Shown here piece by piece: positions 1,939-14,063 of a DNA stretch of 20,832 bases; the first letter of the stretch is position 1, and every line of letters begins with the position of its first letter. The DNA lies in IMG/VR virus record IMGVR_UViG_3300037264_009496, positions 1-20,832 of that record. One strand, 5' to 3'. Both the position numbers and the translations under genes were made by a program. The notes under the pieces were generated by a model. That model was not told the origin of the DNA. It did no database searches and saw only the letters and a program-made list of their open reading frames with translations. The stretch is from a virus.

Positions 1939-2460
1939 TTATTGTTCCTTTTCCCCCTCTTTTTCGGATTCGGAGGTGATGACATCCACGGGAGAGGGGC
2001 CGCGGAGGGTTTTGGGTTTCTGATCCCGGTAGTCCAGAGGGTGATATGGATCTTGGGCCGGGGCGGTTTTTTGCTCCTCCACCCCGCCGGATTCGTGTCC
2101 GGATTCATCATAACCCGGGTCGGGTGGATAGTCACCATCCGGCTCTGGCTGAGGCGGGGGCGATGGTTGAATTTTGACCGGGGATGCGGAAGCTCCTCTG
2201 GTTGCCCCGGAGAAAACACCCATCGCGGCATTCAGGATCATTTTCATCAGTTCATCCCATCCCGGAGCCTTGATCCCGGGGCCTTGCGGGGAGACGTGGT
2301 GGTTGCAGTGGAGAGCGCCGGTCTTTCGGTGGAAGGTGATGGTGATTATGATAATCTCATCCCCCGGGCCGGAAGTGGACTCCGTGACAGGAAGCTGGGG
2401 GGGAGTGGGAGGCTGCTGTCGGCGAATCTGAATCTGTCTAAGAGGGTGAGTCCTGTTCAT
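1939..2460 (-). CDS. Proline-rich hypothetical protein, 173 aa
   Basis: ATG at 2460 is preceded by a good GGAGG Shine-Dalgarno site 9 nt upstream, which supports this strand over a longer opposing frame. The first 35 residues are basic and Pro-rich. Residues about 36-60 contain a beta-like segment (EIIIITITFHRKTGALHC), and residues about 70-90 a short helix (WDELMKMILNAAMGVF). The C-terminal half is low-complexity, rich in Pro, Glu and Asp (for example QPEPDGDYPPDPGYDES), ending in an acidic tail. It is probably mostly disordered. I recognise no family. It lies between the regulator-like gene (3 bp upstream) and the holin-like gene. Confidence 0.6.
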   Translation of the reverse strand: MNRTHPLRQIQIRRQQPPTPPQLPVTESTSGPGDEIIIITITFHRKTGALHCNHHVSPQGPGIKAPGWDELMKMILNAAMGVFSGATRGASASPVKIQPSPPPQPEPDGDYPPDPGYDESGHESGGVEEQKTAPAQDPYHPLDYRDQKPKTLRGPSPVDVITSESEKEGEKEQ

Positions 2461-2463
2461 GCC

Positions 2464-2961
2464 TTATTTCCTCCCTCGGGGGTTGATTTTCTTTTTGGCC
2501 AGGCGCTTTGGGTTGGCGGGTGCGGGGGTTGGAGCCGGAGCGGGCTTTTTCCTCTTCATAGGGCTGGGAGATGGGACCGGATTGGGATCGGGGTCCGCGT
2601 CATTTTCCGGTTTGTCGGCATTGCCGCCCTCTCCATCCCCGAACGGGGTGAATTTTTCCGGGCGCGGCTTCCTCGAAACAGGGGCCGGATTGATCGCTTT
2701 GGCTACGTAATAGAGATACAAATCGCCCATCGAAATCCCAGTCACTTCGGAGATGGCGTAGAGCAGGCGCATTCCGATGGAGCTTCGGCCGGAGCGGGCG
2801 CGGGAGATCTGGGTTTCAAAGCAGGGGAAGCCGGCTGAGATGAGGGCCGTGGTCAGGGATTTGCAGGACAGGGTGTCCATGTAGGAAGTTACTGACTGGA
2901 GCGGGCCGGGGTAGATGCGGTCTTTTTGGAATGTTCGGCTTTCTCTTGGTTCGGCTGGCAT
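2464..2961 (-). CDS. Cro/YdaS-like helix-turn-helix regulator with a long basic tail, 165 aa
   Basis: Residues about 28-85 read as a small helical DNA-binding domain. A helix around SLTTALISAG is followed by a turn and a putative recognition helix (ETQISRARSGRSS), then LLYAISEVTGISMGDLY. That last segment matches the family signature of Cro/YdaS-type regulators, where AIE-x-x-TGG-x-V-x-x-x-x-L follows the helix-turn-helix. The C-terminal half is low-complexity Pro, Asp and Lys (PDPNPVPSPSP, then a Lys/Arg-rich end), which could hold DNA or partners non-specifically. The match is from memory of the family pattern, not a search. It may act on the inverted or tandem repeats near the promoters of this block, which is inference. 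The Shine-Dalgarno site is weak (AAAGG 14 nt upstream). Confidence 0.55.
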   Translation of the reverse strand: MPAEPRESRTFQKDRIYPGPLQSVTSYMDTLSCKSLTTALISAGFPCFETQISRARSGRSSIGMRLLYAISEVTGISMGDLYLYYVAKAINPAPVSRKPRPEKFTPFGDGEGGNADKPENDADPDPNPVPSPSPMKRKKPAPAPTPAPANPKRLAKKKINPRGRK

Positions 2962-2987
2962 TTTTTTTGTTTAACCTTTCTTTTTTG

Positions 2988-3410
2988 TTATTCTGAATCA
3001 GAATCAGTATTACCCTTGCCGGGCTTGAACAGTATGTAGTTGCTGCTGCTCTCACGGGAGGCCAATTCCATGAATTTGGCGATTTTGGGCGGGGCCAGGT
3101 TCATGGAAGCGAGGGTTGCCCGGCACTGGTCCGCCCCGGCCATGATGGTGCGGGTTTGGCTGACGCGGGTAAAGGAACCCAAGTCGGCCCGGCGGATTGT
3201 TTTTTCGACGCCGATCTCCTCCATGAGGATTTCGATTTCCTCGCCTATCAGTTTCTTTCTGGCTTCCAGTTCCCGCATGGATTTGAGAGTGGCGCTGATT
3301 TCGGCCATTTCCGCGAGCCTGGAGTGGAGGCGCCGGGCTTTGTCGGCAGGAACAACTCCCCCTCTGTCTCCCGGGCCTTCGAGATTGAGGATTTCAACTC
3401 CTCCTGGCAT
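2988..3410 (-). CDS. Coiled-coil hypothetical protein, 140 aa
   Basis: Residues about 25-68 form a long charged helix with heptad-like hydrophobic spacing (LHSRLAEMAEISATLKSM, then ELEARKKLIGEEIEILMEE), a likely coiled coil. It is followed by a compact segment starting GVEKTIRRADLGSFTRVSQ. Helical N-terminus plus a short beta-like domain containing G-x-F is a layout I associate with small early phage proteins of the Gp157-like kind, but I cannot assign it. ATG at 3410 has AGGAGG 13 nt upstream, a long spacing. The gene follows the polymerase gene by 48 bp and precedes the regulator-like gene, so it is probably part of the same transcript. Confidence 0.6.
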   Translation of the reverse strand: MPGGVEILNLEGPGDRGGVVPADKARRLHSRLAEMAEISATLKSMRELEARKKLIGEEIEILMEEIGVEKTIRRADLGSFTRVSQTRTIMAGADQCRATLASMNLAPPKIAKFMELASRESSSNYILFKPGKGNTDSDSE

Positions 3411-3458
3411 TTGTTTTGTTTATCCTCCTGTTGCCTTTCGGTTGGATTATTGGCTGAT

Positions 3459-6215
3459 CTACTCAGCCTGTTGTTCCGGGATACCATAATACTCTGATTT
3501 TTCTTCATCGTCAATGTTAAATTCCGGTATTTCGTATTTTTCCAGTTCACCCCAGGATTGGCCGATTTCAGCATCCACAGTTATGGGAACCCTTAGTTTG
3601 ACGGAATACTTCATGGTTTGAGCCAGCCTGGAGGCGAATAAGGAAGCCTCGTTGTCCGATACTTCAAACATAAGAGCGTCGTGGATTTGCAAGAGGGGAT
3701 TGCAGGTCCAGCCATTTCTGCGGAACCCGGTGACAACGGAAGCCATGTCCCGCATGGCCCGCTTTGTGGCCCCGGCCGTCCCACCCTGAATGACGGCATT
3801 ACAGGCCGCTCTCTCAGCCTCAGCCCGGCAAAAGGAATCCGGGGAGTTGACGCCGGCCAGCCATCGGATCCGCCCAAAACAGTCCCGGGCATAGCCGGTT
3901 CTTCGGACTTCGGCTATCACGGAATCGAAGAAAACTCTCACTCCCCGGAATACGGTGAACCACTCCCGGATCAAATCCTGGCATCGTTCCTTGCTCCACT
4001 CGCCCGGGTCGCATTTTTGACTGAGCAGGAGGTCACGCAGACCTTCAGCGGTCAACCCGAAGGCTACTCCGAATCCGACGGTTTTGGCCGGGAGGCGGTG
4101 CTTGTATTTGTCCTGATCTTCGGGTTTGACTCCGAAAATTCTCAGGGCTGTTTGCTGGTGAATATCCTCTCCGGCCCGGAAAATGCGGGTCATTTCTGGA
4201 TCCCGGGAGCAGTGGGCCATGATGCAGAAGTCCATCTTGCCGTAGTCGGCATGGACTATTTTTGAGCCGGGAGAGGCGCGGAAGCAGGCGCGGATTAAGC
4301 GGCCGTTGTCAGATCGGACAGGCATGGCCAGGAGGTTTGGGTTGCGGCTGGTCATGCGGCCGGTGAGAGTGCCAGTGGTTTGGAGGTTGGCGTGAATGCG
4401 GTTGTCGGGGCTAAGGGCTGAGTGCTCGATCAGGGGGAGGATGAAGGCGGAGAGGAGCTTTTCGCGCTCGCGCCAATCGAGGATTTTTTGAACAACCGCG
4501 GCTTGCGGGGCGAGCCGGGAGAGGAAGCGGCTGTTGGTTGAGTTGAAGTTCTTTTTCTTTTCCGGGCGGGCGAGGGAGAGTTTTTTATAGACCAGATCGG
4601 AAACATGGACCCAGGAACCGGGGTTGATGTAAGTCCCGGCCAGTTTGTTGATTTCCAGCCCGAGTTTCTCCCTCTCCCGGGCTAGGCGGGTTGAGAGGGA
4701 TGAAAGGCGTTTTTGACTCACACCCATCCCGGCCTTTTCCATTTCCAGAACCAAACCCTGGGCGCCGGTGTCGGTTTCAATCGTCTCTTCAAGGCTGAGG
4801 GATTTGATCCTGGCCAGAAGGGGCTGATGGATTCGGAGAGTTGCGTCAGCGTCCCGGCAAGCGTAGTTGATAGCGGCCCTGCGGGATTCCGGTCCGGCTT
4901 CATACATATCCCCAAGCCATCCAGGGTGAAGGGGGCCGAGGACTTTTTCCACTTCGGCCCGGCCCTCGTCAGGGCTGATGTTGGTCCACCTTTTCACAGG
5001 GTCAGCGCCTTTTTTGTCCGTGTCGTCCAGGATTTTTTTGACCCGGGCGGTGATGTTTTTGGGCTGGCGGAATCGGGGAACAAAAATCCCGGAGCCTGAT
5101 TTTTTGTCCGGCTCCATTACCATCTGCATGGGAGGGTTGGGCCAGGTTCGGCTGAGGATGGATTCGAGGTATTGAACGGCTTTTTCCACAGTGACTTCGG
5201 CTGTCACTGTCTCATACCCCTCCATCTCCATCCCGCACAAACGCCAGGCCAGCGCCTTCAACCCTCCCGGGACGGTTTGGATGGCGCGGGCAAGGATGAG
5301 GGAGTCGAGGATTTTGGCGGGGCGGATTCCGAGGGATTCGAGGCGGGGGATGTCGAATTGGGCGTTATGGATGAGGGTTGTCACGCCCGGGTTGGAGAGG
5401 ATTTGGGAGAGGCGCTTGAGAGCGGGTTTGGATGAGGGGGTGTTGCGGATTAGAAATCCGGTCCCGGGTTTTGCGCTGAACTGGACTGACCATGTTTCCC
5501 AGGATGGGTCGGAGCCTGATTTTTCGGCTTCCGTGTCCACGGCGATGATTTTGGCCCCGGCCAGTCGAGCGGTAAGAATATCCGGGCTGGTTATTTCCTT
5601 GTAAGTTTCTCTCCCTATTAAGTTATCAAGACGGGAATGATCCAATGGGCGCACCGGGCCTCCGAGGGTGCGCTCAAGAGCCTCAAAATCCTCCACGATT
5701 AGTTGATACATGTTTTGCTGATGCAGACCTGCGGCCGGGTGATAGCAGGGGTGGACTATAATGCCGTCGGATCGGAGGAAGGGGATGCCGTGCTGTAATT
5801 CCAAACTCCTGGGGGCGTTGAGGGCTTCCAGGGCAAACTTCCCGAGGGTGACGATGATTTTGGGCTTGAAGAGGGTTATTTCCTGAGCAAGAAACCCGGA
5901 GCAGGCTTGAATTTGTTCGGGGCGCGGGTCGTGATTGTCCGGGGGGCGGCATTTGACGGTGTTGGTGATGTGGCAGCGCCAGCGCTCAACCCCGGCTCTT
6001 TTTAAGTGGGAATCCAATTCCTGTCCGGCTTTGCCGGTGAAGGGTTTGCCGGTCATGTCTTCCTGATAGCCGGGGGCTTCGCCGACCAGCATGATTCCGT
6101 TGAAGTGGCGGGAAGGGGGGGAGTTGAAAGGCACCGGGGCTTTGCATCCGGCTCTCAGGGAGCAGGATTGGCAGGAGAGGATGGAGGATTTAAGAGCGGG
6201 AGAGTTGTCAATCAT
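3459..6215 (-). CDS. Uracil-DNA glycosylase / 3'-5' exonuclease / family A DNA polymerase fusion, 918 aa
   Basis: Three enzymes in one chain. Residues 1-180 are a family 4-type uracil-DNA glycosylase: C15 and C18, C89 (TVKCRPP) and C105 match the four Fe-S cysteines. Motif GEAPG (45-49) with GKPFTGKAG (56-64) and HPA (159-161) are present. Residues about 215-465 are the proofreading exonuclease, with D227/E229 (VDTE), N284/D288 (HNAQFD) and Y451/D455 (YACRD). Residues about 490-890 are the polymerase: TGRMTSRNPNL (618-628), motif A around D657 (HADYGKMDF), motif B R707-K711-F715-F719, and motif C around D846 (QIHDAL). The start is uncertain because no Shine-Dalgarno site is seen, but ATG at 6215 overlaps the upstream stop by 8 bp, suggesting coupling. 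Phage SPO1 polymerase is known to carry a similar N-terminal glycosylase-like domain. Odd points are Asp662 at the usual Glu steric-gate position and Ala847 after the motif C Asp. This is the likely replicative polymerase. Confidence 0.95.
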   Translation of the reverse strand: MIDNSPALKSSILSCQSCSLRAGCKAPVPFNSPPSRHFNGIMLVGEAPGYQEDMTGKPFTGKAGQELDSHLKRAGVERWRCHITNTVKCRPPDNHDPRPEQIQACSGFLAQEITLFKPKIIVTLGKFALEALNAPRSLELQHGIPFLRSDGIIVHPCYHPAAGLHQQNMYQLIVEDFEALERTLGGPVRPLDHSRLDNLIGRETYKEITSPDILTARLAGAKIIAVDTEAEKSGSDPSWETWSVQFSAKPGTGFLIRNTPSSKPALKRLSQILSNPGVTTLIHNAQFDIPRLESLGIRPAKILDSLILARAIQTVPGGLKALAWRLCGMEMEGYETVTAEVTVEKAVQYLESILSRTWPNPPMQMVMEPDKKSGSGIFVPRFRQPKNITARVKKILDDTDKKGADPVKRWTNISPDEGRAEVEKVLGPLHPGWLGDMYEAGPESRRAAINYACRDADATLRIHQPLLARIKSLSLEETIETDTGAQGLVLEMEKAGMGVSQKRLSSLSTRLAREREKLGLEINKLAGTYINPGSWVHVSDLVYKKLSLARPEKKKNFNSTNSRFLSRLAPQAAVVQKILDWREREKLLSAFILPLIEHSALSPDNRIHANLQTTGTLTGRMTSRNPNLLAMPVRSDNGRLIRACFRASPGSKIVHADYGKMDFCIMAHCSRDPEMTRIFRAGEDIHQQTALRIFGVKPEDQDKYKHRLPAKTVGFGVAFGLTAEGLRDLLLSQKCDPGEWSKERCQDLIREWFTVFRGVRVFFDSVIAEVRRTGYARDCFGRIRWLAGVNSPDSFCRAEAERAACNAVIQGGTAGATKRAMRDMASVVTGFRRNGWTCNPLLQIHDALMFEVSDNEASLFASRLAQTMKYSVKLRVPITVDAEIGQSWGELEKYEIPEFNIDDEEKSEYYGIPEQQAE

Positions 6216-6396
6216 TGTGATTTGTGAACAGCCACTTAATTAAAAGAAACAGAGCAAGAAAAACCCACAGCGGGGATGATGCTATTAGTATAACAAAAAC
6301 CCAGGGTAAGGTCAAAACAAACCCTGATCTTACTCCCAACAGGATTCCTGAAATCAAACCCCAGGTAAATAACAAAGCCGCTTGTCTTGCCTTCAT
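6208..6396 (-). CDS. Small membrane protein with two helices, 62 aa
   Basis: ATG at 6396 overlaps the methyltransferase stop as ATGA, and the gene's own stop overlaps the polymerase start by 8 bp, so it is translationally linked at both ends. A longer reading frame exists upstream to 6507 but it is a shadow of the methyltransferase. Residues about 7-22 and 25-56 are strongly hydrophobic (for example VFLALFLLIKWLF), predicting two transmembrane helices in a hairpin with a short basic N-terminus. There is no recognisable family. Its place inside a DNA-replication operon is unusual; it could tether replication proteins to the membrane or have an unrelated host-takeover role. Both are guesses. 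Confidence 0.65.
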   Translation of the reverse strand: MKARQAALLFTWGLISGILLGVRSGFVLTLPWVFVILIASSPLWVFLALFLLIKWLFTNHND

Positions 6397-7508
6397 TGAT
6401 TTATACCTCTTTTTCTTTCCACTTCCATAATCCTCTCCCCAATCCAGGCCATGACAGGCACGGCCATCGCATTGCCTATGGCTCTGTATCTTGGCCCGTC
6501 CGGGCATTTGTCAGCGGGCCTGCCGCGCCAGGGTATTTGGGTCCAATCATCAGGGATGCTTTGAAGGCGCTCGCACTCCCGGGGGGTGAGGCGCCGAACA
6601 CCGGACCCGCTGCCAATGCCGTGTTGTGCGCCGGATTGGAGAGTGAACATGGGATCCCCGGGGTTGCCTATCCCCATACCGGCCCTGGGGTCGGTTGTGC
6701 TTTTTCCTGTTCTCTTGCCGACTTCGAGCAGTGGGATTGGGCTGTTTGTGATAACAAGGGCCTGGGTGCAGTCCGAGTCCGGGCCTTTCCCGACCCTCTC
6801 CTGCAAGCATGGGGAGATGCTGTGGGTTACAATCAGCGGATCCTGCCCCCGGCTCTCCCCTGCTCTGGCTGTTCCTCTGCCGCTGCCGCTAAGGCACGGC
6901 GCAATTCTTCGGGAAGATGCTTGCCGCGCCTTTCCGCCCTTGCCAGGATTCCCCTGCAAGCAGCCACGCTCAAATAAAACCTCCCCGGGACACTTCCACT
7001 CTCTTCCAGAATATCCGACAAGGAACACTCTTCGGCGCCGTTGCGGGACTCCGAAGTATTGAGCGTCCAGCACCCTCCAGGCCAGCCGATACCCGAGTTT
7101 CCCCATTTCCCCGAGGAAGGCTCCAAATGCCCTTCCTCCGTCCTGCGACAAAACTCCGGGAACATTCTCCCATACAATCCACTTAGGCCGGGGTTCAATC
7201 CTCCCAGCCAGGCGAGCAAATTCGAGAGTGAGATTGCCCCGGGGATCGGACAAGCCTTTTCTTTTGCCGGCCTGGGAGAAGGATTGGCAGGGGGTTCCGG
7301 CCGCGAGGATGTCAATAGGTTTGAACTGGCGCAAGTGCCGCGATTCAATGGAGGGGAAGTCTCCGAGGTTGGGGATGGAGGGGAAGCGGGTTTGGAGGAT
7401 TTCATTGCAGAAAGGGTCCGTTTCGGCAAACCAGGCCGGGGTCCAGCCGAGAGGAGTCCATGCGAGGGAGGCGGATTCAAGCCCGGAACAAACCGTGGCG
7501 AAGATCAT
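6393..7508 (-). CDS. DNA (cytosine-5) methyltransferase, 371 aa
   Basis: It transfers a methyl group from S-adenosylmethionine to C5 of cytosine in a specific DNA site. Motifs are in the standard order: I (FATVCSGLESASLAW, 3-17), IV with the catalytic cysteine in GTPCQSFSQ (Cys74), VI ENVPGVL (114-120), VIII QRRRRVFLVG (156-165), and X with YRAIGNAMAVPV (341-352). The segment between about 170 and 305 is the variable target-recognition region. The start is ATG at 7508, which overlaps the nuclease stop as ATGA; 97 in-frame residues further upstream only mirror the nuclease gene. No partner restriction endonuclease is visible, so it is probably an orphan phage enzyme that protects viral DNA from host restriction. 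Specificity cannot be read from the sequence. The C-terminal region has a phage-type PMFTLQSGAQHG segment. Confidence 0.93.
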   Translation of the reverse strand: MIFATVCSGLESASLAWTPLGWTPAWFAETDPFCNEILQTRFPSIPNLGDFPSIESRHLRQFKPIDILAAGTPCQSFSQAGKRKGLSDPRGNLTLEFARLAGRIEPRPKWIVWENVPGVLSQDGGRAFGAFLGEMGKLGYRLAWRVLDAQYFGVPQRRRRVFLVGYSGREWKCPGEVLFERGCLQGNPGKGGKARQASSRRIAPCLSGSGRGTARAGESRGQDPLIVTHSISPCLQERVGKGPDSDCTQALVITNSPIPLLEVGKRTGKSTTDPRAGMGIGNPGDPMFTLQSGAQHGIGSGSGVRRLTPRECERLQSIPDDWTQIPWRGRPADKCPDGPRYRAIGNAMAVPVMAWIGERIMEVERKRGINQ

Positions 7509-8275
7509 ATTTTGTTCCGTCTGAACTCGCTGTTCTCTTCGGTAAATATCCTCTCCATCATCTCCGCTCTCTTCCTTCCAACCCCCTTCAAATTCTTCAG
7601 GGATGCGGCTTTCATGCCGACCAGCTTTTTCAGGCTTGGCACGGCTTGCGCAATCCCCCGGGCCAGTTCGGGGCCTATGCCGCTGATGGATGCCGCAGTC
7701 CGGATGAACTGATTGGGAGGGTTTATGGAGGGGCTGATGGATGGGTATGGGTTGAATTTGTGATGGCTTTTGTGCGATTCCCAGGGTTTGGTCCACCATG
7801 AATGAAGGTGAAGAATGCGGTTGCAGGTGTCTTGAATGTCGTCAGTGAACAAAACCCTCACCCCGAACATTTCCTGCATCATAATAAGCGAGCCGTCAAA
7901 GGCTTCAGCAGTCATCCCTTTGGATCCGGACAAGCGGGCCTTGCGGCTCCCCGTCCCAAAATCCAGCCCGGATTGGATCAGGATGTCCGAAGCCCCGGAT
8001 TGAGTTGTTCGGAATATGGGGCCTTCGATGATGATATATGGAGCCCCGCAGGATTGCGCAAGCCCCGGGAGTTGATGTCCTGTCAGGCGCCCGGAAGAAA
8101 GGGAGTCGGCGTAATCCGGGACGGTTTTGCGCTCAATCCCTATCCAAATAACCCCGGCCGGACCGTTCCCGGAAAAGGCCGCGTCTCCGTATTCAAGCCT
8201 GGTCAGGCTGCATAACTCCGGGGGCATCAGGGGCAGGAGTTCTTTAGACCCGGATCTGTCGTCAATAAGAATCAT
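7505..8275 (-). CDS. ERCC4-type (XPF/Mus81-like) structure-specific nuclease with HhH domain, about 256 aa
   Basis: The catalytic signature ERK-x3-D is present (IERKTVPDYADSL, E48-R49-K50...D54), preceded by IDDR near the N-terminus (residues 4-7), as in ERCC4 nucleases that cut branched DNA. The C-terminal part, about residues 192-245, carries tandem helix-hairpin-helix motifs (ISGIGPELARGIA and LKGVGRKRAEMM) that bind the DNA backbone. I chose ATG at 8275 because family members usually begin close to the IDDR strand; a TTG at 8293 in the same frame is the alternative, and neither has a good Shine-Dalgarno site. The stop overlaps the methyltransferase start by 4 bp. A Pro/Ser/Asn-rich linker (about 165-190) separates the two domains. 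In a phage it probably resolves recombination or replication intermediates. Confidence 0.9.
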   Translation of the reverse strand: MILIDDRSGSKELLPLMPPELCSLTRLEYGDAAFSGNGPAGVIWIGIERKTVPDYADSLSSGRLTGHQLPGLAQSCGAPYIIIEGPIFRTTQSGASDILIQSGLDFGTGSRKARLSGSKGMTAEAFDGSLIMMQEMFGVRVLFTDDIQDTCNRILHLHSWWTKPWESHKSHHKFNPYPSISPSINPPNQFIRTAASISGIGPELARGIAQAVPSLKKLVGMKAASLKNLKGVGRKRAEMMERIFTEENSEFRRNKI

Positions 8276-8445
8276 CGGTATTACAAAAACCAATCATGGC
8301 GCGGCCGCACATAGGCGGGGTTGGTTGGACAAACAGGCCCGGCCCCGGTTTCCAAAGCCGAACCTGATTTTATGAGCGGCCGCTCAACCGGCTTGCCGCC
8401 GGAGGTGGGATACGGCCGCGCCATGACTTTTCAGAGCGGGTTGGT
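8276..8445. repeat. Intergenic region with 14-bp inverted repeats and a central GC palindrome
   Basis: The arms TCATGGCGCGGCCG (8294-8307) and its exact complement (8413-8426) are 105 bp apart. Between them lies a 14-bp perfect palindrome TGAGCGGCCGCTCA (8373-8386). A short imperfect direct repeat (GGCGGGGTTGGTT near 8313-8325, GCGGGTTGGTTT near 8435-8446) flanks the structure. No gene is seen in the interval. It separates the lipoprotein-like gene from the nuclease gene and could be a terminator, a regulatory site, a recombination site or part of an origin. The sequence shows the symmetry only. Confidence 0.6.
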
Positions 8446-9000
8446 TTAGGGCGCCGGGGCCGGATCCGGGATGGGTTCGGGTTCCGGGATCGGCTTGTCC
8501 GCCTCGATTTGCGCCTTCTCAACATCCCCGTAAGTGTCAATTCCTTCCACAGTGACATCAGACAAAAACTCAAAAAGGGCTTGGAAGAACCGGGTCCAGA
8601 ACCAGAACTTCACTGCGGCAATGCCCGCCTTCTCAATAGTCTGCATCTGGCGATCCTGATCGGTTGTTCTATGCAAGTGAACCGTCCCGTCCGGGCCGGT
8701 ATAGACATTTTCCTCAGCATTGCTGAAAAAATTCCAGGCTTTGTATCGGACATCGAAGGTTGCCGGTTCTGTTACTGTTTTGTCATGGCTCAGGTCCGAG
8801 AAAGAATAGGGTCCGGGGTTCCCGTCAGCATAGCCCTGGTCTGATACGTTGACGGCGCTGGCGATTTCGTGATAGACCGGCCCGCGCCCGGTGTAGGTCA
8901 GGTTGGTTGTGGAGCAGGCGAGGGACAGGAGGAGAAGGGCCGGAACAGTTGGTTTCGCGCATGGGATGGAAACAGGTTTGTTCCGGCCCGGTTTGGTCAC
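8446..9000 (-). CDS. Probable lipoprotein, 184 aa
   Basis: After a basic N-terminus, residues about 18-28 form a hydrophobic core (VPALLLLSLA) followed by Cys29, a near-lipobox S-L-A-C in which positions -3 and -2 are unusual. This suggests export and possibly lipid anchoring, less certain than for the protein at 1287-1640. The mature part has no family I recognise. It contains a Trp/Phe-rich segment (KFWFWTRFFQALFEFL, about 129-144) that may be an amphipathic or membrane-associated helix, and ends in a Pro/Glu repeat tail (PIPEPEPIPDPAPAP). ATG at 9000 overlaps the upstream stop as ATGA. It could modify the host envelope, for instance in superinfection exclusion, but that is inference from export alone. 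Confidence 0.7.
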   Translation of the reverse strand: MTKPGRNKPVSIPCAKPTVPALLLLSLACSTTNLTYTGRGPVYHEIASAVNVSDQGYADGNPGPYSFSDLSHDKTVTEPATFDVRYKAWNFFSNAEENVYTGPDGTVHLHRTTDQDRQMQTIEKAGIAAVKFWFWTRFFQALFEFLSDVTVEGIDTYGDVEKAQIEADKPIPEPEPIPDPAPAP

Positions 9001-9266
9001 GGCTCAATCTCCAGAAGCAGGGGCGGCAACCCACCCGCGCCTGGTAATTCGGTGAGCGCGGATTCCCCGCTATTTTTCAACGCGGTATCCAAACCGCACC
9101 CGAATATCTTACAAAGCCCTCTTGCCGCCCTGAGAGCGCCTTTGGATTCCGGGTGCGCTTCCGGCGGGATGATCGTTTCCCCGTTCGGCGCGATAATGGA
9201 GAACCTCCACTGGCCGTCAGCACCGGGTTTGATTTTGAGCGTGTGCATTTTTCGTGGTCTGCCCAT
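8997..9266 (-). CDS. DUF1508/YegP-like small protein, 89 aa
   Basis: Residues about 9-50 read as one YegP-type unit: a strand with WRFSIIAPNGETI, then a helix with SKGALRAARGL. This matches the family pattern W-x-F-x-(L/I)-x-x-x-NG-x-x-(I/L) followed by S-K-x-x-A-x-x-x-(I/V). Members usually carry one or two such units; the biochemical role is unknown. A good AGGAAGGA Shine-Dalgarno region lies upstream of the ATG at 9266. A promoter-like sequence at 9297-9324 lies just before it, so it may start its own transcript as well as being read from upstream. The stop overlaps the next gene by 4 bp. The family assignment is from pattern memory. Confidence 0.65.
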   Translation of the reverse strand: MGRPRKMHTLKIKPGADGQWRFSIIAPNGETIIPPEAHPESKGALRAARGLCKIFGCGLDTALKNSGESALTELPGAGGLPPLLLEIEP

Positions 9267-9296
9267 TGCTCTGTCCTTCCTTCCTATCCTGTCTTC

Positions 9297-9324
9297 ATTA
9301 TACTCCGGGCTGATGCCGGATCAA
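9297..9324 (-). promoter_or_regulatory. Candidate sigma70 promoter
   Basis: On the minus strand TTGATC (9324-9319) is followed after 16 bp by a perfect TATAAT (9302-9297). The predicted start point is near 9290, about 24 bp before the ATG at 9266. It would drive the DUF1508-like and lipoprotein-like genes separately from the upstream replication genes. Confidence 0.5.
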
Positions 9325-9326
9325 AT

Positions 9327-9422
9327 CTATTCAATTACTGCCAGTCCTTCAGTGCGACGAACAAAGACGATCCCATCATGGTCATCCGCAATCTTCCATC
9401 GCTCTGTTATCGGGTCGGTCAC
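9327..9422 (-). CDS. Very small coupled gene, 31 aa
   Basis: A GTG start at 9422 overlaps the preceding stop as GTGA, and AGGAGTGGGAG lies immediately upstream as a Shine-Dalgarno site. The 31 codons end in TAG at 9327-9329. The product starts MTDPITERWKIADDHDGIVF and ends VRRTEGLAVIE, a composition and strand pattern (W-x-I, GIVFVRR, GLAVIE) that looks like a compact beta-structured peptide rather than a random frame. I know no family. The gene fits the coupled style of this operon, which is the main support; the short length keeps confidence moderate. Confidence 0.5.
   Translation of the reverse strand: MTDPITERWKIADDHDGIVFVRRTEGLAVIE
9334..9349. repeat. 16-bp direct repeat, copy 1 (copy 2 at 9693-9708)
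   Basis: ATTACTGCCAGTCCTT occurs at 9334-9349 and 9693-9708, the same orientation, 359 bp apart. Allowing one inserted base, similarity extends to about 20 bp (TTCA before the core). In copy 2 the sequence encodes the last residues of the ATPase (KDWQ-stop) and the TAATG junction; in copy 1 it lies in a different frame near the end of the 31-codon gene. It bounds the two small genes 9327-9694 on both sides. Confidence 0.7.
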
Positions 9423-9694
9423 GACTCCCACTCCTGTAGGCTCTTGCATACACGCAGCATCGCAACCACGTCGCCCTCGATCATGGCCTTGCTGGCAGTA
9501 TCAAGGTCGGCGCGCATCATTGCAGCCGCAAAAGCACCTGACGGTCCGATCTCCAAATAGGTGGGGAGAATCTCGTCTCGGACGCGAGCGATCTGTCGTG
9601 GTAGTTCATCACCAAGAGTAACTGTGGAATTTAAGGTCATGGCTGTTTCTCCTATCTGTCCGGCTTTTCTGTCAATAAGCTCTTCTCTGTTCAT
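9419..9694 (-). CDS. Small phage protein of unknown function, 91 aa (or 73 aa)
   Basis: The first ATG at 9694 overlaps the ATPase stop as TAATG. A second ATG at 9640 has a proper AGGAGA Shine-Dalgarno site 8 nt upstream and begins MTLNSTVTLGDELPRQIARV, which looks like a natural N-terminus, so either start is possible. The protein is helical and acidic, with a segment (GAFAAAMMRADLDTASKAM) followed by GDVVAMLRVCKSLQEWE. I associate this with a widespread small phage protein found in replication or recombination operons, function unknown, from memory only. The downstream 31-codon gene overlaps its stop. Confidence 0.7.
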   Translation of the reverse strand: MNREELIDRKAGQIGETAMTLNSTVTLGDELPRQIARVRDEILPTYLEIGPSGAFAAAMMRADLDTASKAMIEGDVVAMLRVCKSLQEWES

Positions 9695-9708
9695 TACTGC
9701 CAGTCCTT
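9693..9708. repeat. 16-bp direct repeat, copy 2 (copy 1 at 9334-9349)
   Basis: Exact second copy of ATTACTGCCAGTCCTT. It covers the end of the ATPase gene and the start codon of the next gene. Confidence 0.7.
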
Positions 9709-10584
9709 TTTCTCCGACCCCTGAATAATCTCACAGGCCACGCTCGCAAAATCCGCCTCCCCATCGGCCTGATGAAATTCCGTCCCGGTCAGGTTGGGGC
9801 GGGCGCGGCACGAAACAATCTGAATATAAAAACCCTCACCCTTCCCGGCCCGTTTTGCCTCGATAGGGTCACGGTTGCAATAAACAACGGCTTGGGCCTC
9901 GAATGGAGCATCCTTCCAGCCTTTGGGTTCCAATTTCCCTGACGGATTGGACTTGCCTTCCGAGTCCGTTACATACTCTTTCCCGGCCCGCTCAATAAAC
10001 ACCACATTGCAAGTCTTCTGCTCCCGGGCCTTTGCCATAACCCAGCGCATTTCCGCGTTCGGCCGGGTGTATTGAAGCTGGGTTGCGTTCTTGCTGCCGT
10101 CAAAATGCGCCCCCCTGGCCAGATCCCAAAGGTGGGTGCCGGTATCAATGATGACGGTTTTTGCATTGGCCAGGGCGTAGATGTAGTCTTTGCGGAACTC
10201 TTCCAGTTCCCGCATGGCCCGGGAGCCGTCGGACTCGTTCCCGATTCGGACCGAATAGCGTTTTTCCAGAATTTCCTTCGCGTCCTTCCCTGCCTTGATG
10301 AATTTGTTCACCATGACTTCCAGGCCGTCGTCAAAGTTGAATATAAAAATCGGCCCCGGGCCGGTCAGGGCGAAGTGGGTTTTGCCGCACTTCTCCGGGC
10401 CATAGGCCATGATAACGAGGCGCTTTGGGCGAGAGGGTTTGACCGGGCTAAATCCATGCTCTTCGGGCGGGGCGGTTGTGTTGACGGACTCAGCCCGGGT
10501 GAATGCAGCCGCGTCCACGTCATTTGGGCGCCCCTTCCCCTTTCCCCCGCCGGGGTTGAGAACTCTTCCCATCGTGACTGCCAT
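9694..10584 (-). CDS. Sak4/RecA-like AAA ATPase, 296 aa
   Basis: A Walker A motif GPEKCGKT (62-69) follows a strand (RLVIMAY). PIFIFNFDDGLE (78-89) and a Walker B strand TVIID (143-147) complete a compact RecA-like core, the layout of phage Sak4/AAA_24 single-strand annealing and strand-exchange ATPases. The N-terminal 50 residues are low-complexity. The start is ATG at 10584, which overlaps the nuclease stop as TAATG; an upstream frame to 10653 is a shadow. Sak4 proteins are known to work with a cognate ssDNA-binding protein, and here a candidate lies two genes upstream with a nuclease in between, which supports a recombination module. The last residues include the 16-bp repeat. Confidence 0.85.
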   Translation of the reverse strand: MAVTMGRVLNPGGGKGKGRPNDVDAAAFTRAESVNTTAPPEEHGFSPVKPSRPKRLVIMAYGPEKCGKTHFALTGPGPIFIFNFDDGLEVMVNKFIKAGKDAKEILEKRYSVRIGNESDGSRAMRELEEFRKDYIYALANAKTVIIDTGTHLWDLARGAHFDGSKNATQLQYTRPNAEMRWVMAKAREQKTCNVVFIERAGKEYVTDSEGKSNPSGKLEPKGWKDAPFEAQAVVYCNRDPIEAKRAGKGEGFYIQIVSCRARPNLTGTEFHQADGEADFASVACEIIQGSEKKDWQ

Positions 10585-11396
10585 TATTTCCCCTTTCCTT
10601 TCGCCGGGTTTAGCAGATTTTTGTCTCCGGCATATTCCAGAATTGTGTTCCAATTTTCCCTGATCTCACCCGGGGTGAACTCTATTTTCCATGATTTCAG
10701 GATAGGAAAATTCCCTCTATAGTCTCCATTAACAAAAAAGACCATCAGGAAACAGACAAGAGGGGCAAAGTCAGGGCCGGCTGTTTTCAAAGACCGCAGA
10801 GCCATAAGATAGCTTTGGATCTGGGCCTTGATCTTCCACTCCCTCTCCGGGTCGAAGTTGAGGGCTGATTTCCAGCGGAGCTTGTATTCCAGCAGGGCGC
10901 CGGTTGGCTGCTCCCCGCAGGCCGGGATAAACCCGTCCGGGGAGCATATAATCCCGGCCCTGGTTATTTCCTTTGGGCGCACGGCAAGCCCCAGCCCGGG
11001 GATCCCGGTTACTCTGGCAAATTCAGCCGACCTCTCCGCAAAAGCCATCTCCAGCATGGACTCGAATACAAATCCGGCTTCCCAGAGGGAAGTGAGCCTG
11101 TCTCCCGGGTATGGGGGATCGTCTTTGCGGAACTGTCGGACAGCGTAAGTGGACAGGGTTTTATTAGCCCCTTTTAGCATACTGCCAAATATGTCCTCTT
11201 CCATAAGACTGAGTATTTCGGACAGGTGGATTCTTTTGCCGGATCTGGGAAGCCCGGAAGAGCCGAAGCCCTTGTGGATTGAGGATATTGCTTTGATGTT
11301 CATTTGAAAACTTGGCCGGGTTTGTTTGGGCGGACCGGCCATGCCGCCTGAGATTGGCTGATGATGAGACTGAAACGAAAAATAGCTGAGGATCAA
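10584..11396 (-). CDS. RecB/Cas4-like PD-(D/E)XK nuclease, up to 270 aa
   Basis: The catalytic core is visible as an upstream acidic residue (E112 in GFVFESMLE), D154 (CSPDGFI), E170-x-K172 (LLEYKLRWKS) and a QxxxY motif (Q192 to Y196, QIQSYLMAL). These are the hallmarks of RecB-type exonucleases such as Cas4 and phage recombination nucleases. No Cas4-type C-terminal Fe-S cysteine cluster is evident. The first possible start is TTG at 11396, overlapping the upstream stop by 4 bp with AGGAGG almost touching it; ATG at 11342 (residue 19) or 11303 (residue 32) are alternatives. The core begins near residue 55, so the choice does not affect function. With the ssDNA-binding-like protein and Sak4-like ATPase on either side it probably prepares DNA ends for recombination. 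Confidence 0.88.
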   Translation of the reverse strand: MILSYFSFQSHHQPISGGMAGPPKQTRPSFQMNIKAISSIHKGFGSSGLPRSGKRIHLSEILSLMEEDIFGSMLKGANKTLSTYAVRQFRKDDPPYPGDRLTSLWEAGFVFESMLEMAFAERSAEFARVTGIPGLGLAVRPKEITRAGIICSPDGFIPACGEQPTGALLEYKLRWKSALNFDPEREWKIKAQIQSYLMALRSLKTAGPDFAPLVCFLMVFFVNGDYRGNFPILKSWKIEFTPGEIRENWNTILEYAGDKNLLNPAKGKGK

Positions 11397-12473: not shown

Positions 12474-14063
12474 CTAATTTTCAAAATTGATGGGCCTGGG
12501 TGGGGTGTTGGTAATGTTTATCCGCTTCCAAAATGACCTCGAACCCAGGCCCAGATTCACCGCCTTTGCCCTGATCCAGAGGAAGTTGGCGTCAAGGATG
12601 ATGGTTTCGCACCAGTCACTGACACTTCTCACCCCGCGCCCGGCCCCCTGCTCAAGGATTTTCATGCCTTCGCATATCCCGAAATTTTTGTCGGCCCCGG
12701 CCCGAACCGAAGCCGGAAACTCCCGGGTATCGGGAAAGGGGAATTTAACCCAGATAATGCAGCGGCAATCCTCGTCTTTCAAGTCGGCACCCTCGGTCAG
12801 GGAGGGAGAGGCGAGGATTGCGTTCGGTATAGATCGAAATTCAGCAAGAGCCTTTGCCGAACCGCCTTTGGCATGGGTCAGAATAGAGGAAGCCCAGGCT
12901 GAGGTTTCGGCTATCCTGGTCATCCTGGCGTAGGAGCCGGCGTGAATGAGGATTCGGCGGTCACGGCGTTTGCGGATTTCGTTATCCAGGGCCTCCATCA
13001 TCCTCGCCCAACCTGTTTCATCCGTCCGAAAATCCATTCGGACCACTGGATAGACATGGATGGGCGCTCTTGACGGGTTGAGGGTGTCCGGGGCGGAGAA
13101 GTAGTCAGCCGCTCCGGCCTGGTTTGCGTCGTGAAGGCTGAGGGTTGCCGACATTATGAGGCAGGTTTTGGCCCGGGAGAAGAGGAGCTTTGGGGCAAGG
13201 TGCTCCGGGGTGATTGGGGAAATCATTACAGTTTTTTCCCTTGCCACAAGGGTCTCCCACTTAATACCGGATTTCAGGGATTCCCGGCATCTTGCGGCGG
13301 ATCGGAGCTTTGCCTTGATAATGGCAAGAGCGGACCGGGCGAATTTTTCAGAGGATTTTCCGCCGTTCTCCAACAATCCTTTAAGCCTTTCCTCTTCCAG
13401 CTTCAGAACCTTTTCAGCCTGATCCAGAGCTTGGCCGGTCGGTATGCTCTTTTCGGAAAGGGGGAGTTTGAAAACCTGCCCTGTTTCCTGCATATCCACT
13501 TCGGCCGCGGATTCGAGCCAGCGCCCGGCCGTGTGCCACTCATCGCAAATCAGCACATCAATCCCGTCAAACCCCTTCTCACCCTCATGGGCCAGGAAAC
13601 AGGCGTAGTTGGTGACAACTATTTTGGATGAGGCGGCGCGGCGGAGGGCTGAGAAGTAAGCGCACCCGGATTGCTTGAGGGGGCATTTGTATCCGGTGTT
13701 GCATGGGGCGTCCGCGGCTGAGAAGCGGGCGTCCAGATCGCATTTGTAGTTGGACTTGCCTTTGAGGGTTGTCATGCCGTCACCCCGGAAGCTCTCCATT
13801 ACCTGGTCCTGGAGTTGGCGGGTGCCGGTCAGGTAGAAAATGCGGCCGGAGGGGGCCTGGTTTTTTTTCTTTACCCCAAGCAGGCGGGCCGCAAATTCCA
13901 TCGCGGCCAGGCTTTTGCCTGAGCCTGTTTGGGCCTGAAGGGCGAGGGTGAGGGTGAGGGTTGCAGGGACCGGGGTGCGGTCTGCCGCCTTGTCCAGGTG
14001 ACGGATGATGGTTTCCTGGACCGGGCGGAGGGTTGAGAAGGCTGAGAAAACGGAATCAGTCAC
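12474..14063 (-). CDS. DinG/XPD-like Fe-S DNA helicase, 529 aa
   Basis: A superfamily 2 helicase. Motif I is AQTGSGKS (44-51). Cysteines 108, 121, 127 and 134 sit between motifs I and II in the position of the Fe-S cluster of XPD/DinG helicases. Motif II is DEWH (174-177) instead of the usual DEAH, motif III is SAT (305-307), and motif VI is QGAGRGVR (472-479). Such enzymes unwind DNA 5' to 3' and often resolve unusual structures. Start: GTG at 14063 with AAGGAAC about 7 nt upstream, overlapping the preceding gene by 8 bp. A charged helical insertion at about 205-265 corresponds to the arch-domain region. At 529 residues it is shorter than E. coli DinG (716), as phage versions tend to be. It is probably the helicase of the replication module. 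Confidence 0.9.
   Translation of the reverse strand: MTDSVFSAFSTLRPVQETIIRHLDKAADRTPVPATLTLTLALQAQTGSGKSLAAMEFAARLLGVKKKNQAPSGRIFYLTGTRQLQDQVMESFRGDGMTTLKGKSNYKCDLDARFSAADAPCNTGYKCPLKQSGCAYFSALRRAASSKIVVTNYACFLAHEGEKGFDGIDVLICDEWHTAGRWLESAAEVDMQETGQVFKLPLSEKSIPTGQALDQAEKVLKLEEERLKGLLENGGKSSEKFARSALAIIKAKLRSAARCRESLKSGIKWETLVAREKTVMISPITPEHLAPKLLFSRAKTCLIMSATLSLHDANQAGAADYFSAPDTLNPSRAPIHVYPVVRMDFRTDETGWARMMEALDNEIRKRRDRRILIHAGSYARMTRIAETSAWASSILTHAKGGSAKALAEFRSIPNAILASPSLTEGADLKDEDCRCIIWVKFPFPDTREFPASVRAGADKNFGICEGMKILEQGAGRGVRSVSDWCETIILDANFLWIRAKAVNLGLGSRSFWKRINITNTPPRPINFEN

Follow-up and report, generated by a model that had tools for sequence, protein, structure and literature searches.

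Phage DNA polymerases that combine, in this order, a uracil-DNA glycosylase (UDG), a 3'-5' exonuclease and a family A polymerase (PolA) domain are known from the SPO1 gp31 group and from PMBT14, Serbin, Lebethron and ctfzr933, with HDA or HDS in motif C. These polymerases are about 23% to 28% identical to the protein described here and retain both the steric-gate Glu and the conserved Arg of motif A. Most of the named phages with such fusions also carry thymidylate synthase (TS)-like and dCMP deaminase genes, and UDG-PolA phages of 40 kb contain Sak4 and nuclease genes nearby. Several UDG structures are still labeled "Phage SPO1 DNA polymerase-related protein", so a link of this UDG family to the SPO1 polymerase was noted long ago. 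UdgX, an enzyme close to family 4, holds the uracil by Asn91 and His178, and its motif A residue Glu52 has a part in catalysis (PMC10359453). Work on Taq (PMC9738464) and Bst polymerases shows that sugar discrimination depends on the gate Glu, which excludes the 2'-OH, and the E658A variant of Bst polymerase, one of the Foldseek matches, was crystallized with rCTP (PDB 4dqq). The polymerase of Thermus phage Tt72, which contains no UDG and keeps the gate Glu, has naturally lost the motif C Glu (HDS) and is active; its S616A mutant keeps 76% of the activity and the gate mutant E389A 35% (PMC9324360).

The locus studied here is located on an IMG/VR virus record, and the window, by which we mean the whole stretch of DNA analyzed, is a fragment of 20,832 bases; the whole claim rests on this one assembled metagenomic contig. 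A single uninterrupted open reading frame of 918 codons encodes a UDG, an exonuclease and a polymerase in one chain, inside a phage replication cassette.

3459..6215 (-), UDG, 3'-5' exonuclease and family A DNA polymerase, 918 amino acids (ORF, Pfam, NCBIfam, AlphaFold)
5661..6215 (-), family-4 UDG domain, amino acids 1-185 (TIGR00758 above cut-off; best solved match 4zbx)
4806..5585 (-), 3'-5' exonuclease region (D227/E229, N284/D288 and Y451/D455 all present)
3546..4760 (-), family A polymerase domain, amino acids 486-890 (Pfam; Foldseek to Bst and Klenow)

Pfam assigned residues 41-167 to UDG (5.7e-27), 211-333 to DNA_pol_A_exo1 (1.1e-14) and 502-890 to DNA_pol_A (3.4e-90). The AlphaFold model, based on 32 aligned sequences, had a mean pLDDT of 86.4 and a pTM of 0.80, matched the Bst and Klenow polymerases in Foldseek with a target TM of about 0.88, and confidently predicts a Klenow/Bst-like fold. 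The polymerase domain contains the family A residues D657, D846, K711, R707 and F715, and the exonuclease region holds an insert of 80 to 90 amino acids that is common to the clade. Judging from the alignments, the catalytic residues of all 3 domains are intact. The fold and the equivalents of D705, K758, R754, F762, Q849, H881 and D882 are shared with the E. coli, Bst and Taq Pol I enzymes, from which the protein differs by the equivalents of E710D, R712C, Y766F and E883A and by a UDG instead of the 5' nuclease. The DpoZ (2-aminoadenine) polymerases are also phage PolA proteins with an exonuclease, but membership of this family was ruled out by a score of 94.2 bits against the NCBIfam DpoZ cut-off of 500.

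For comparison, we aligned 95 non-redundant UDG-fused phage polymerases, which together with 52 polymerases without UDG gave a set of 147 sequences for the motif analyses, non-redundant at 90%. The UDG-PolA fusion is a common phage architecture and nothing special in itself. Scans for single proteins with exact peptides, in viral and in genome collections, gave no match to the window protein, nor did a scan of genome contigs with the P0001/L044 alignment. It was also noted that residues 15-109 of PDB 9qhs chain A, a "putative DNA polymerase I" of 1,142 amino acids, match the UDG of the window, and a structure of a UDG-PolA protein may already exist in this entry. Furthermore, 2 phage contigs, L041 (7083-9356 and 9485-11830) and L048 (7071-9356 and 9494-11815), each contained 2 different, full-length-looking UDG-PolA genes in tandem.

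The UDG domain scored 130.5 to 135.5 bits against the NCBIfam model for family-4 UDGs (TIGR00758), above the curated cut-off of 125.3 bits, and its best solved relatives were Sulfolobus 4zbx (4.2e-34) and Thermus 1ui0. As in these enzymes, the 4 Fe-S cysteines, the GE(A/G)PG motif, the Asn of the TN motif and the HP motif were all found.

6162..6173 (-), Fe-S cysteines C15 and C18 (sequence; aligned with 4zbx)
6069..6083 (-), UDG motif GEAPG, G45-G49 with E46 (family-4 motif GE(A/G)PG, PMC10359453)
5961..5963 (-), N85 in TNTV, equivalent of the uracil-contacting Asn (4zbx alignment; role according to PMC10359453)
5901..5951 (-), Fe-S cysteines C89 and C105, at the ends of the stretch (sequence; aligned with 4zbx)
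5733..5741 (-), UDG motif HPA, H159-P-A161 (sequence; 4zbx alignment)

The alignment with 4zbx thereby confirmed the original prediction that C15, C18, C89, C105, GEAPG and HPA have been kept. The intactness of the UDG had also been thought to set this protein apart, which did not hold: the 4 cysteines were kept in 55 of the 61 UDG-fused phage polymerases in our first set, so that a UDG without such losses is typical of them. What distinguishes the domain from the family-4 UDGs is its fusion to a polymerase and a His where UDG motif B has its DNA-binding Arg, a replacement common to the clade of the window protein. In the relative L044 (8097-10745), the UDG has lost the Fe-S cysteines and contains NPA instead of HPA while the exonuclease and the polymerase persist, which suggests that UDG catalysis may be dispensable. 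Such retention of the domain without the Fe-S cysteines or the His motif, in L044 and in the SPO1-group polymerases, and the His in UDG motif B would fit a domain that serves as a non-catalytic sensor of uracil or template, or as a structural tether, with polymerization being what counts. We consider this unlikely for the window protein, since its catalytic and Fe-S residues are all intact, like those of most relatives, and since Sulfolobus 4zbx itself has a Tyr in place of the motif B Arg. Excision of uracil in cis is, from the residues present, the likely activity of the domain.

The polymerase domain differs from E. coli Pol I in each of the 3 motifs.

4218..4253 (-), motif A, HADYGKMDFCIM, with catalytic D657, gate residue D662 (4230-4232) and C664 replacing Arg (4224-4226)
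4053..4097 (-), motif B, RLPAKTVGFGVAFGL, with R707, K711 and F715 kept and F719 (4059-4061) replacing E. coli Tyr766
3666..3692 (-), motif C, LQIHDALMF, with D846 kept and A847 (3675-3677) replacing Glu883

The gate Glu is generally considered almost universal among family A polymerases, although it does not define the family; in the window protein, the position is occupied by D662. Glu was present in 143 of the 147 comparison polymerases, a frequency that is an estimate for this sample only because relatives were sampled via conserved peptides. The 4 exceptions (L155, L157, L158 and L159) form a single clade with the motif DLxRADL[FQ], and among the sampled enzymes the gate Asp was thus seen only in the window and in 1 unrelated UDG-PolA lineage. 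Within a stricter set of 141 polymerases, the Arg corresponding to position 664 was kept in 135 of the 138 enzymes with a gate Glu and in none of those with a gate Asp, the window protein included; every sampled enzyme with an Asp gate also lacks this conserved Arg 2 residues further on. The altered motif A, with the Glu gate changed to Asp662 and the Arg to Cys664, was confirmed. Two motif A searches with the gate Asp, the second of which added closer relatives through another pattern, revealed no further enzyme of the window's type with an Asp gate. A literature search for the UDG-PolA fusion or for E615D/E710D found no direct report in the openly accessible literature, and no report of a Glu-to-Asp gate change was found there; removal of the gate to Gly or Ala is not equivalent to Asp. 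The genes of the second lineage are located at 2326-4653 (L155), 7947-10442 (L157), 7902-10517 (L158) and 7953-10451 (L159), and encode HGTNYGG in motif B and, where covered, HDS in motif C.

The other 2 motifs turned out to be less exceptional. The substitution of the motif B Tyr by F719 is real but not unique, since a Phe was recorded in 7 of the 95 UDG-fused polymerases and is recurrent. The residue after HD in motif C was Ser or Ala in 73 of the 95 UDG-fused polymerases, and HDA, originally predicted to be unusual, is therefore normal for this architecture; as Tt72 Pol is also naturally HDS, the motif was dropped as a special feature. The motif C Glu is more often lost where a UDG is fused, being present in 11 of 95 UDG-fused polymerases versus 37 of 52 without UDG, an association strongly confounded by ancestry. 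Alignment with phage PolA proteins, as proposed in the original prediction, thus left motif A as non-standard, whereas motif C was ordinary and the Phe in motif B recurrent. The gate Asp combined with the loss of the Arg is the rare element in the alignments, the UDG fusion and HDA being of a known type, and the gate change is the sole part likely to surprise a specialist.

The dependence on a single metagenomic contig raises the question of whether the gene is degenerating or was misassembled at motif A. We consider either very improbable. The 918-codon frame is intact, the structural model is confident, and the window protein keeps 21 of the 25 polymerase columns with at least 85% conservation; that only 4 are broken (E662D, R664C, Y719F and D815G), 3 of them within motifs A and B, speaks against general decay, and D815G is common to the clade. 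Motif A (gac tac ggc aag atg gac ttc tgc) also contains several linked changes, which do not resemble a sequencing slip. A frameshift at this position was ruled out by the codons and by the flanking frame, which is continuous on both sides, with IMAH.SRD matching E. coli Pol I.

The closest relatives were L186 (38% identity in the best segment), L126, L127, L187, L188 and L044, followed by L189, L020, L023, L031 and L129. In the trees, the window protein was placed among these UDG-PolA phages, beside bacterial and HDE-type phage polymerases and outside the large HD[SA] group of UDG-PolA proteins, with weakly supported branching within its own clade. All 11 relatives contain the gate Glu, which assigns the change to Asp to the branch of the window itself, whereas the residues in motif B (Y, F, N or M) and motif C (E, D, S or A) vary within the clade. 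The polymerase genes are interrupted in L020 (10193-10476), L023 (1634-2193) and L189 (5443-5981), directly before motif A in the former 2; no known intron was matched by Rfam in these split genes.

The distribution of the gate residue bears on a reading in which the protein is an ordinary high-fidelity phage polymerase, with Asp662 doing the job of the Glu in a re-packed pocket. Asp is the most conservative substitute for the gate Glu, retains the carboxylate, and may keep ordinary selectivity. The Arg at 664 was likewise replaced in the second lineage, which makes Asp with Arg loss look like a compatible combination that can recur, and the position of the motif B Tyr varies among the clade members. 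Against this, the presence of Glu in 143 of 147 comparison polymerases and in all 11 clade relatives indicates a strong constraint on the position, and the window protein has neither the gate Glu nor the Tyr of motif B. These 2 residues are in mutual contact in Pol I structures, and the window has thus altered both partners. We regard a neutral or compensated gate as a serious possibility, to which we would give somewhat less than even weight.

The genes surrounding the polymerase gene were examined for conservation in the relatives.

7505..8293 (-), ERCC4-type nuclease with helix-hairpin-helix (PF02732, 1.4e-11; common to L044, L126 and L127)
9694..10653 (-), Sak4-like AAA ATPase, cassette gene (PF13479 and phrog_124; shared with relatives)
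10584..11396 (-), conserved protein of the cassette, resembling PD-(D/E)XK by motif alone (37% identity over 161 amino acids to L044 2654-3418; no Pfam match)
12474..14063 (-), DNA helicase, cassette gene (L127 match, e-53)

The cassette of helicase, Sak4-like ATPase, ERCC4 nuclease and UDG-PolA is common to L127 and L044, and partly to L126. The ERCC4-type nuclease gene is located upstream of the polymerase gene in the cassette and is its immediate neighbor in several relatives; ERCC4-like ORFs, judged by eye, precede the polymerase in L020, L031, L129 and L189. A gene for a C5-cytosine DNA methyltransferase was identified beside the polymerase at 6393-7799, with a relative adjoining the polymerase in L126; it probably starts close to 7510, outside the ERCC4 gene.

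The methyltransferase was the only base-modification gene identified in the window, which bears on the suggestion that the phage has modified-base DNA like SPO1, its UDG-polymerase serving a genome with replaced or hypermodified thymine. Across the wider group there is a connection with such nucleotides: of the 38 UDG-PolA records, 18 contained a member of the thymidylate synthase family and 20 a dCMP deaminase, whereas among the 14 records without UDG the numbers were 0 (p = 0.0009) and 1 (p = 0.004), p values that are indicative only, as the records are mutually related and not phylogenetically independent. Since 7 of the 38 were deliberately chosen named phages, the metagenomic records were also considered alone (thymidylate synthase in 11 of 31, p = 0.01; dCMP deaminase in 14 of 31, p = 0.016). 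In named relatives, the TS-like genes adjoin the polymerase gene. However, no thymidylate synthase or similar dUMP hydroxymethylase gene was found in the window or in L044 (51 kb), L188 (61 kb), L189 (46 kb) and L127 (21.5 kb), all of which are fragments, and neither dCMP deaminase nor dUTPase was found in L044 or L127. The UDG fusion accompanies dU-nucleotide genes in many phages, with no sign of this in the fragments from the present lineage. The parallel drawn with SPO1 is further weakened by the SPO1-group polymerases, which themselves lack the Fe-S cysteines, unlike the window protein, and a modified-base phage of this kind is highly unlikely here.

The domain architecture, the intact catalytic residues, the rarity of the gate and the conserved cassette are apparent from the sequence and the predicted model. 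The best explanation is probably an active phage replication or repair polymerase that clips uracil and has a possibly loosened sugar gate. It is favored by a UDG above the family-4 cut-off, the confident fold, the conservation of the cassette in relatives and the activity of Tt72 Pol with HDS; against it stand the degenerate UDG of L044, the His at the UDG motif B Arg in the clade and the single contig. According to this explanation, the N-terminal family-4 UDG would excise uracil from DNA being copied or newly made by the same enzyme, and the resulting AP site would be processed by a host nuclease or possibly by the ERCC4 protein of the phage cassette. The exonuclease domain would proofread, and the family A domain would make DNA via its 2 catalytic Asp residues, D657 and D846; as both are kept, the loss of the motif C Glu should not disable the polymerase, and polymerase activity is very likely. 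With Glu changed to Asp at the gate and Tyr to Phe in motif B, the carboxylate would stay but the pocket would be loosened, probably reducing the exclusion of ribonucleotides to some degree. Weaker sugar discrimination than in the Glu enzymes is a tentative prediction, for which we see a nearly even chance.

The gate Glu is a classical engineering target for polymerases that accept RNA or 2'-modified nucleotides. It would be a long shot that nature has made a similar change, in a polymerase with an Asp gate that tolerates ribonucleotides (or 2'-modified nucleotides) or even incorporates them on purpose into the phage DNA, with the tethered UDG policing uracil, and that the same gate arose twice, the other time also in a UDG-fused lineage. 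A natural Glu-to-Asp gate in 2 unrelated UDG-fused lineages, always with loss of the Arg, provides a ready-made test of the natural relaxation of sugar discrimination.
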